From NCBI RefSeq assembly GCF_002355835.1, contig NZ_AP017459.1:992001-1056000 (forward strand): a stretch of DNA of 64,000 bases. The letters run 5' to 3'. The translations under genes and the position numbers were made by a program. Position 1 is the first letter of the stretch, and each line of letters starts with the position of its first letter. The notes below the pieces were generated by a model, which saw nothing but the letters and a program-made list of their open reading frames with translations, did no database searches and was not told the origin of the DNA. Origin of the DNA: Candidatus Endomicrobiellum trichonymphae. Lineage in GTDB: Bacteria > Elusimicrobiota > Endomicrobiia > Endomicrobiales > Endomicrobiaceae. This document shows positions 45,690-48,660 of the stretch, in pieces.

Positions 45690-46037
45690 ATGTTTTTTAT
45701 CTACTTAACCGACCGCTTTTTATCTGGTTTTTATTCTCTCTGACATATTTTCTTTTTTGTAATCATTTTATCTTTAAGACAGTCGGCAACATATTTTAGA
45801 GAATCTGAATTGTCTGATAATTTTTAAAGCTGGAATTTTTTTCATACTTACTCAAACTTTATATTTTAGATTTCCCAATTAACAAACACTTAGAAAGTTT
45901 TTTATGTCCATTACTTGCTTATTTTATGCGCCGCGTATATTTTTAACTTTCGTTCTTCGATATCACTAATTTTTACATGCTAGGAAATTACATAAATTTG
46001 ATCATATCAAGTCAAGTTAAGTATTAATTTTTTAATA
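45690..46037. other. Gap with no recognised gene
   Basis: About 350 AT-rich bases between the repeat protein and the tiny-ORF cluster. A promoter for the repeat protein is likely here, but no clear pair of boxes was identified. Confidence 0.35.
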
Positions 46038-46196
46038 TTAATCTACATTACACTTCAACCTCGAAGCTATTGATTTGTCAATGAGGTTAAACATTGATTT
46101 TCCAACCAGATCTATCTTGACTGGCTCGACTAAGTCGTTTAAAGATTCTACTAGCATGTCCATCACCTTTTTGTAGGCGAACGATTCATTTGTCAT
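46038..46196 (-). CDS. Tiny ORF D of compact cluster (52 residues)
   Basis: ATG at 46196 with a strong GGAGGAAAGG just upstream. The protein starts MTNESFAYKKVMDMLVESLN, is helix-prone and acidic to neutral, and ends RLKCNVD. Codon choice (CTA, GTC, TCG) differs from neighbouring genes. No family recognised; probably acquired DNA. It is the last of a minus-strand series of overlapping small ORFs. Confidence 0.55.
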   Translation of the reverse strand: MTNESFAYKKVMDMLVESLNDLVEPVKIDLVGKSMFNLIDKSIASRLKCNVD

Positions 46197-46211
46197 TTTA
46201 CCTTTCCTCCA

Positions 46212-46289
46212 TCAAGATGGTGCTAGCTGGGCTAAAAGGGTATAGGTAACTCTTATCGAGGACTCGACACTATTAATCATAGCTATCAT
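46212..46289 (-). CDS. Tiny ORF C of compact cluster (25 residues)
   Basis: Reads MIAMINSVESSIRVTYTLLA and ends QLAPS. Its ATG overlaps the preceding stop (ATGA), and its stop lies 15 bases before the ATG of ORF D, inside that ORF's ribosome-site region. It may be a real coupled peptide or the displaced tail of ORF B. Confidence 0.35.
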   Translation of the reverse strand: MIAMINSVESSIRVTYTLLAQLAPS

Positions 46290-46477
46290 ACAGTCAACGT
46301 ATGGGTGATAATCAAGAATAGTCGACTGAACTCCCTTTTGATATTCGCTAATCTTTCTCTTGCATTACGTAAAAGAATTATTGTGTTTTGCCAGACTTCT
46401 GGATTTGGGTACTGACCTTGTCTCATCATTTCCTTTTCAACTTTTAACAGTTGCTCGGCAAACACTTCCTTAAACAT
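46286..46477 (-). CDS. Tiny ORF B of compact cluster (63 residues)
   Basis: Starts MFKEVFAEQLLKVEKEMMRQ, continues with a charged helical region (LLRNARERLANIKREF) and ends in a short hydrophobic stretch. It overlaps ORF A by 8 bases and ORF C by 4. ORFs A and B might originally have been one secreted protein split by a frameshift. No family recognised. Confidence 0.5.
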   Translation of the reverse strand: MFKEVFAEQLLKVEKEMMRQGQYPNPEVWQNTIILLRNARERLANIKREFSRLFLIITHTLTV

Positions 46478-46580
46478 TAGATATGACTTCTTTTTCCTGT
46501 TCCTGTATCAAACCCTCTCCTGCAAATGCTACCTGTGATACCATAAACATACACATCAATCCTGCAATTAGTTTTTTCAT
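46470..46580 (-). CDS. Tiny ORF A of compact cluster: signal-peptide peptide (36 residues)
   Basis: Starts MKKLIAGLMCMFMVSQVAFA, a clean signal peptide with an AxA-like cleavage site, followed by 16 polar residues (GEGLIQEQEKEVISNV). Its ATG overlaps the stop of a further frame upstream that reads KDAEKLVQMWDGWNLNKRM but contains an in-frame TAA. Function unknown. Confidence 0.5.
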   Translation of the reverse strand: MKKLIAGLMCMFMVSQVAFAGEGLIQEQEKEVISNV

Positions 46581-46827
46581 TGTTTCATCCGTTTGTTTAA
46601 ATTCCATCCGTCCCACATTTGTACCAACTTCTCTGCATCCTTTACCGCTATTTCTTATGGATCAATTCTGTCTATAAACAAATACCTGTTGAAAAATAAA
46701 CATAAGTTTTTTTCAACATATTCTAACTTTTACTGCATGTAATAATTATGAGGGGTCAATGTAATATATAGAAAAAAAATCACAAAAACATATATTCCGT
46801 TCTGTTGGTTAAGTAATGGGCATTTGC
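46581..46827. other. Upstream part of the tiny-ORF cluster, partly decayed
   Basis: Contains on the minus strand the end of another small frame (about 46577-46645) interrupted by TAA. An imperfect inverted repeat GTTGAAAAA...TTTTTCAAC lies at about 46689-46719. Confidence 0.35.
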
Positions 46828-47424
46828 TTAATCAGGATTGTATTTATATACGGAAGGCTCTATCATATTTATATCTTTTCTATACATATTTGCAAATATA
46901 TATTTTGCGACCGAAAACATTGTCAAAACATCTGCCATTGCCCTGTGTCTCAATTCCGCTTCAATGCCTATAGCATCCGCTATATTGCCAAGTTTATTTG
47001 AATCAAAACTGAAATACTGTCTTGCAAGTTTTAAAGTGTCTATATAGCGGATATTTTTTACAGGCACTCCTGCCAGGTAAAGTTCTCTGCAGACAAAAAG
47101 TAAATCAAAAGGAGCGTTGTGACATACGACAACGCTGTGTCCGATAAAAGAAAATACATTCCCCGCAATCTCGTCAAAAGACGGCGAATTTTTTATCATA
47201 TCGTCGTAAATAGCATGGACTTTAGAACATTCCGAAGGTATTGGCAGACCCGGATTTACAAGACTTTCATATCTCTCTTCAATACCGCCACACACTTTAA
47301 GCATTGCGATTTCAACTATATTCGCGCCTTTTTCGGGATCAAGTCCTGTAGTTTCGATATCTAAAAAAACTAAATTATCGGGCAATTTTTTAAAAAGCAG
47401 TTTTACGGCAGATTGATATTTCAT
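46828..47424 (-). CDS. DnaQ-like 3'-5' exonuclease (DEDDh)
   Basis: Exonuclease domain related to the DNA polymerase III epsilon subunit. 198 residues. Motifs: FLDIETTGLDPEKGANIVEIA (ExoI), CHNAPFDLLFV (ExoII) and HRAMADV (ExoIII with His and Asp). It could be the proofreading subunit or a stand-alone exonuclease; sequence does not decide. Confidence 0.88.
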   Translation of the reverse strand: MKYQSAVKLLFKKLPDNLVFLDIETTGLDPEKGANIVEIAMLKVCGGIEERYESLVNPGLPIPSECSKVHAIYDDMIKNSPSFDEIAGNVFSFIGHSVVVCHNAPFDLLFVCRELYLAGVPVKNIRYIDTLKLARQYFSFDSNKLGNIADAIGIEAELRHRAMADVLTMFSVAKYIFANMYRKDINMIEPSVYKYNPD

Positions 47425-47719: not shown

Positions 47720-48655
47720 TTATCTCAAATCAATTCCTATGTTTCTAAGTCCACCGACAGCATCATCGTTGCCGCAGAACGCCACTTTCTTTAAATACTC
47801 CCCCCCCTTTTTACGACATACCGAGAATATAACTTGCTTTGTGTCACTGTCAAGATTTATTTTTTCAGAGCTTTTAACAACATTCTGCCGCTTCAGAGAA
47901 ATTGTTCCTGTCGTGATAGATATCAGCTATACGGAATTATAAAATCTTCATCAGCTTTTATTGCTTTGCGGTAATTAAATAACGCTTCGGCACGGTTATT
48001 TAATTTCAAATACATGTCGCCAACGCTGAGTTATGCGGCGACAAACAAACTATCGTTTTCTTTTACCTTTTCATAATACGGACAGTGCCTCCTTGTATCT
48101 GCCCTCTTCTCTAAACGTATTGCCAATTAAATTGTAAAAACCGGCGTTGCTGAAATTTTTCGACAAAAGAGTTTTTTTAAAACATCCTCGCATTTTCATG
48201 AAGTCCGCAGCTTTTAAAACACAACCCTATAAGCTAAGCAAATATGACTTTTAGGAATATGAATCCAGATTTATAGTTTTTTCAAGATAGCGGACTGCCT
48301 GTAAAAATTTTTCTCTACTATCATATTCGGAAGCCTCACTAATATAAAGCGACTCCTATACAATAGTAGTTATCAGAATCGTCGGAATCAAGGCCTACAG
48401 CGAGTTTAAAATACTTTACCGCCAAAATTATAATTTCCCAATCTAAAAAGAGAAGTGTCGTAATTTCTGTACAATTCTGTGCCTAAAGCGTTTAAATCTA
48501 CGACTTTACTAAAATCTTGCATACCGTTCGTCCGCATAATATTCGTCTGCCTTCTGAAAGATAACGTCTTTGGAATAACCTAAATTTCCGTCGATGTATA
48601 TTCCTGTAGACGCAAAAATAAAACACGCCGTTATTATTATCGGACGGTCTTGAAA
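47720..48655 (-). pseudogene. Decayed secreted TPR-repeat protein
   Basis: From the start the minus strand reads IITACFIFASTGIYIDGNLG (an export-signal-like segment), then VIFQKADEYYADERYA, before frameshifts. Towards the end it gives YLKLNNRAEALFNYRKAIKADEDFIIPYS, the TPR pattern, and EYLKKVAFCGNDDAVGGLRN near 47750. Multiple stops occur between. It lies directly after the beta-CASP gene on the same strand. Confidence 0.6.
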
Positions 48656-48660
48656 ACATA

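Follow-up and report, generated by a model that had tools for sequence, protein, structure and literature searches.

Pseudogenes have been described in Endomicrobium genomes, including those of the pilus region in 'Candidatus Endomicrobium trichonymphae' Rs-D17 (PMC8809381). Numerous small genes headed by signal-peptide or lipoprotein leaders are found on plasmids pTGRD1-3 (NC_020420 to NC_020422) of 'Candidatus Endomicrobium trichonymphae', the symbiont of Trichonympha agilis. Small overlapping genes are also characteristic of phage lysis and superinfection-exclusion cassettes. The original prediction likened a chain of four very small ORFs in the window (the whole stretch of 64,000 nucleotides analyzed here) to phage or plasmid micro-operons for lysis or entry exclusion, or to an undescribed peptide system. 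Our analysis indicates that the locus is very probably a decaying insertion, specific to this lineage, of a small cluster of exported-protein genes of the plasmid or phage type, in which one gene, designated B, was split.

The genome was 1.13 Mb in length and consisted of one contig of 1.11 Mb and three contigs of 5.0–5.8 kb. All four predicted ORFs were found on the minus strand within positions 46038–46616 of the window (Table 1). ORF1 and ORF2 overlapped by 8 bases, ORF2 and ORF3 overlapped in an ATGA, and the ATG of ORF4 was preceded by a strong GGAGG at a distance of nine bases, all as described before. For comparison, the 860-base spacer was dinucleotide-shuffled 2000 times: two overlaps of 1–10 bases in one spacer were rare by chance (P = 0.001) and the total ORF length was also unusual (P = 0.02); the length of the longest ORF (P = 0.08) and the number of ORFs (P = 0.12) were unremarkable. 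Thus, the arrangement exceeds chance, and the shuffles are silent on its cause. The proposed foreign codon choice was evident in three of the four ORFs: the codon-use scores of ORF2 (−0.10), ORF3 (−0.01), and ORF4 (0.09) fell below the 5th percentile of the host genes (0.18; median 0.34). ORF1 scored 0.47, and the foreign look does not extend to it because this codon use is host-like. An Rfam scan of the locus gave no match.

Table 1. Features of the locus, in positions of the window
Feature	Position	Strand	Remarks
ORF1	46470–46580	minus	36 codons; same frame also with ATG at 46607
ORF2	46286–46477	minus	63 codons; predicted N-terminal part of split gene B
ORF3	46212–46289	minus	25 codons; predicted C-terminal part of split gene B
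ORF4	46038–46196	minus	52 codons; GGAGG ribosome site
Gene A, 3' remnant	46577–46646	minus	KDAEKLVQMWDGWNLNKRMKQ, then stop; in-frame TAA just upstream
Stretch absent from syntenic relatives	46053–46836 (approximate)		Bounds set by the loss (46836) and return (46053) of homology to L009
HTH_17/excisionase-like regulator pseudogene	45745–45944 (approximate)	minus	Downstream of the ORFs

An intact 101-aa homologue of B, named B', was encoded on the minus strand of the same chromosome (G000:C1:1106494-1106796, corresponding to L017:4495-4797). The DNA alignment of B with B' covered 235 bases with 66% identity, and a net one base was missing from the window copy. Residues 10–48 of B' were matched by the first part of ORF2 (SW score 67, reached by 0 of 500 shuffles); the homology stopped after approximately 43 codons, and the remainder of ORF2 was an out-of-frame read-on. 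Residues 49–90 of B' were matched by the frame containing ORF3, in which DYHPYVDCMIAMINSVESSIRVTYTLL aligned with HQPYFDCMIAMINSVESSVRVTHTLL of B', and this homologous frame was open from upstream of the ORF3 ATG, at approximately position 46350. The C-terminal half alone had 57% identity with B' over 44 aa (E 4.5e-11; SW score 127, reached by 0 of 500 shuffles), and the alignment tool gave an overall identity of 47% between B and B'. The net one-base difference puts the C-terminal part of B in another frame than the N-terminal part. Because both ORFs align to the continuous B' in differing frames, with a net one base missing, ORF2 and ORF3 are evidently one gene B split by a frameshift and not the separate genes that had been proposed: the intact homologue joins them. 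A homologue of this sort is what the original prediction had named as its refutation. Judged by homology, neither the final third of ORF2 nor ORF3's start codon is supported as part of a gene. The predicted structure of B' (AlphaFold) was a helical hairpin (pLDDT 82, pTM 0.40), and a Foldseek search of the model against viral and PDB libraries gave no significant match.

The broken fifth frame reported upstream of the chain was identified as the 3' end of a gene, A, which also precedes B' in the second copy. The 70 bp before ORF1 had 73% DNA identity with the 70 bp directly before B', and the frame of the A end, KDAEKLVQMWDGWNLNKRMKQ with its stop, matched KDAEKMVKMFDIWKLNSRRKR with its stop in the second copy (22 aa at 64%). 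An in-frame TAA was located a few codons upstream of the A end in both copies. The order of the A end followed by B was common to both, and A met the next gene in an ATGA each time; in the second copy A' met B' directly, and in the window ORF1 sat between A and B.

ORF1 consisted of a signal-peptide leader, MKKLIAGLMCMFMVSQVAFAG, and 15 further residues. The clean signal peptide attributed to it was corroborated. The leader is shared with an intact 111-aa exported protein: over 65 bp, the leader DNA was 88% identical to the start of its gene (G000:C1:1078464-1078796). The leader also resembled that of a gene on plasmid contig C2 (55% over 20 aa, E 7e-5). ORF1 may be an isolated peptide or remnant exported protein, or else the broken N-terminus of gene B. 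ORF1 and ORF3 shared one frame, with ORF2 lying between them in a shifted one; on account of this frame pattern, ORF1, ORF2, and ORF3 could together represent one former exported protein of approximately 120 aa.

For ORF4, no match was accepted in its own genome, the genus, Pfam, PHROGs, PADLOC, or NCBIfam; one match at E 0.06 was too weak. Comparison of ORF4 with the other island proteins gave nothing above shuffles. Its end ran into the flank kept in relatives, the homology of which resumes at 46053. ORF4 could represent a gene remnant, a genuine orphan, or a reading frame open by chance.

The gene order around the ORFs, namely an exonuclease-like gene, an HTH_17 regulator, and a GGKKGGK-rich protein, was kept in relatives. 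The spacer between the exonuclease-like gene and the regulator was approximately 880 bp here versus approximately 130–415 bp in most relatives keeping these neighbours, and 783 bp separated the homologous flanks versus 181 bp in L009. In relative G007 (L071), the spacer was approximately 850 bp; it contained no long open frames and did not clearly resemble the insert. The site was thus occupied here and empty of the insert in the syntenic relatives, and B and ORF4 had no convincing match in the genomes of the genus. Since the spacer is shorter in most relatives, homology is absent, and the long spacer of G007 is dissimilar, the insert appears to be specific to the lineage as far as sampled and to lie among decaying DNA; in this sense, the foreign origin of the DNA suggested earlier was supported. 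No terminal repeats were found at the insertion bounds, and no integrase or transposase was found among the spacer ORFs; the adjacent HTH gene belongs to the conserved neighbourhood. This regulator was multiply broken here, with its downstream neighbour kept, and was intact in most Endomicrobium relatives having the gene. Elsewhere in the window, positions 47923–48660 contained short frame fragments (30–53 aa) suggestive of a broken TPR-type gene.

Decaying islands were also present at 729, 836, 1078, and 1106 kb of the chromosome, partly related to each other. The second island, which contains B' (L017:3650-5500; G000:C1:1105649-1107499), encoded B' in intact form together with three broken small genes: A' and C' contained in-frame stops, and the frame of D' was interrupted. 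C' and D' had relatives in the third island at 729 kb, where D' was continuous. The islands at 729 and 836 kb (L056:4441-5600 and L091:1390-2900, respectively) contained genes of small exported proteins and had in common a 78-bp element (87% identical) and a portion of a 188-aa exported protein. The possibility that the shared repeat is an attC-like or RNA element was rejected: its fold was no better than that of shuffles, and Rfam gave no match. In the 1078 kb island (L016:3762-5562), two tRNA genes, a possible integration site, lay near the 111-aa exported protein and a Fic-like fragment. A search of 41 other genomes of the genus for three proteins encoded by the 729 and 1078 kb islands found none of them.

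Three small plasmid-like contigs (L038, L039, L040) encoded numerous small genes whose signal-peptide or lipoprotein leaders were alike and whose bodies differed greatly, with long low-complexity tracts in some. Contig C2 was approximately 90% identical in parts to pTGRD1-3. Homologues of A, B, and ORF4 were not found on pTGRD1-3, the symbiont's own plasmids, or on contigs C2–C4. We failed to find convincing relatives of B in 119 other genomes from the genus level outward, as well as in phage, plasmid, viral-contig, and genome-contig collections. Yersinia plasmid matches of B (a hypothetical protein near parM, E 0.01–0.03) were weak and were not accepted. Designed pentatricopeptide repeat proteins were matched by B' in phmmer (E 3e-6) with no single stretch passing; we attributed this to summing over many consensus repeats, and with no PPR match in Pfam the assignment was rejected. 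C', E', and the 111-aa and 188-aa exported proteins gave nothing convincing in phage and viral collections. The lack of a recognized family predicted for the ORFs held in Pfam, PHROGs, NCBIfam, and PADLOC, and by these searches the B protein family is apparently an orphan one, with no recognized relatives.

The A end and B of the window were compared with the second copy codon by codon. Between these two diverged copies, dN/dS was 0.46 overall, approximately 0.97 for the N-terminal part of B, and 0.36 for its C-terminal part. The pN/pS between the copies was below 1 (bootstrap 0.41–0.89), and therefore protein-level selection acted on the sequence during part of its history. This counts against the decay reading in that the sequence may not be dead throughout. 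The pattern fits a coding past followed by relaxation, a change that two diverged copies do not date.

The interpretation as a decaying insertion is carried by the homology of ORF2 and ORF3 to one intact gene, the homology of the A end, the leader match, the insertion itself, and the regulator pseudogene. A cluster of the small plasmid or phage kind (A, the exported-protein leader, B, and perhaps ORF4) would have entered the spacer between the exonuclease-like gene and the HTH regulator in a 'Candidatus Endomicrobium trichonymphae'-like symbiont of termite-gut flagellates. Function would then have been lost: A was presumably truncated, a net loss of one base would have split B, and the neighbouring regulator would have decayed. 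The likeliest products of the intact cluster are small exported proteins or lipoproteins belonging to a mobile element, in addition to the helical protein B. We found neither an intact donor element nor plasmid homologues of A, B, or ORF4, so that the plasmid or phage donor is inferred; the order of events and the loss of function are inferred as well. Against decay stand the intact leader and host-like codons of ORF1, the strong ribosome site of ORF4, and the similarly long spacer of G007, which is without the insert.

There is also a wider reading, which we regard as unlikely: the several related islands of small exported-protein genes would derive from an undescribed mobile element confined to the lineage. 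Parts of them (the leader peptide of ORF1, ORF4, and intact B') would still be expressed, acting either where symbiont and flagellate host meet or against other elements.

Amplified DNA is a frequent source of genomes of uncultured symbionts. The split, known from one genome, could be only apparent and B intact in the living genome, as a single one-base error in sequencing or assembly would suffice; further lesions nearby (the stop in A and several in the HTH gene) and the in-frame stops and frame breaks around A', C', and D' in the second copy fit real decay, and we consider such an error distinctly improbable.

Neither does the evidence favour a functional chain of separate tiny genes with translation coupled through the overlaps, as originally proposed. 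The rarity of these overlaps in shuffles, the strong ribosome site ahead of ORF4, and the clean leader of ORF1 would be expected of such a micro-operon. They are outweighed by the alignment of one continuous gene to ORF2 and ORF3, the out-of-frame tail of ORF2 and the ORF3 ATG lacking homology support, the broken A, the low coding scores of ORF2 to ORF4, and the absence of B and ORF4 from relatives; with B split and the upstream frame being a broken gene end, the compact chain was left unsupported and is very improbable. A once-continuous coding stretch that has been frameshifted would by itself yield short ORFs in alternating frames overlapping by a few bases, thus mimicking a coupled micro-operon. 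Just as hard to credit is continued production of B as a single protein by programmed ribosomal frameshifting or transcriptional slippage where ORF2 meets ORF3. Although the frame of ORF3 is −1 to that of ORF2 across approximately 100 shared bases and both halves are recognizable, the C-terminal one looking constrained, no canonical slippery heptamer was found near the shift or in the overlap (the only match lies elsewhere), no long homopolymer was seen at the junction, and B' needs no shift.

The decay reading has two implications. With one or two indels, an acquired gene can pass for a coupled micro-operon, a pitfall in the search for small ORFs where genomes are decaying. The related islands scattered over the chromosome suggest that an intracellular symbiont took up small exported-protein clusters repeatedly.

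Among known systems, the locus resembles phage lysis and superinfection-exclusion cassettes in its small overlapping genes, and the phage- or plasmid-like organization noted earlier stands to this extent. The proposed roles in lysis, entry exclusion, or a peptide system do not, as nothing links the ORFs to them: no holin, endolysin, spanin, or exclusion family was above threshold for any ORF, and the 111-aa relative of ORF1 matched a superinfection-exclusion family below the cut-off (E 0.013). For plasmid entry exclusion, the ORFs had no family match and B had only the weak Yersinia plasmid matches (E ~0.01 and above); no PADLOC model of anti-phage defence was matched. Plasmids pTGRD1-3 and contigs C2–C4 share with the locus their small genes with signal-peptide or lipoprotein leaders, one leader on C2 being like that of ORF1, and lack homologues of A, B, or ORF4. 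The decayed insertion is ordinary in kind, and it is the B protein family that has no recognized relatives. The locus also resembles the pseudogenes of reduced endosymbiont genomes in having a frame-disrupted copy with an intact homologue, decaying neighbours, and a reduced AT-rich genome; unlike those of Rs-D17, the broken gene B would be an acquired orphan and not an ancestral metabolic or pilus gene.
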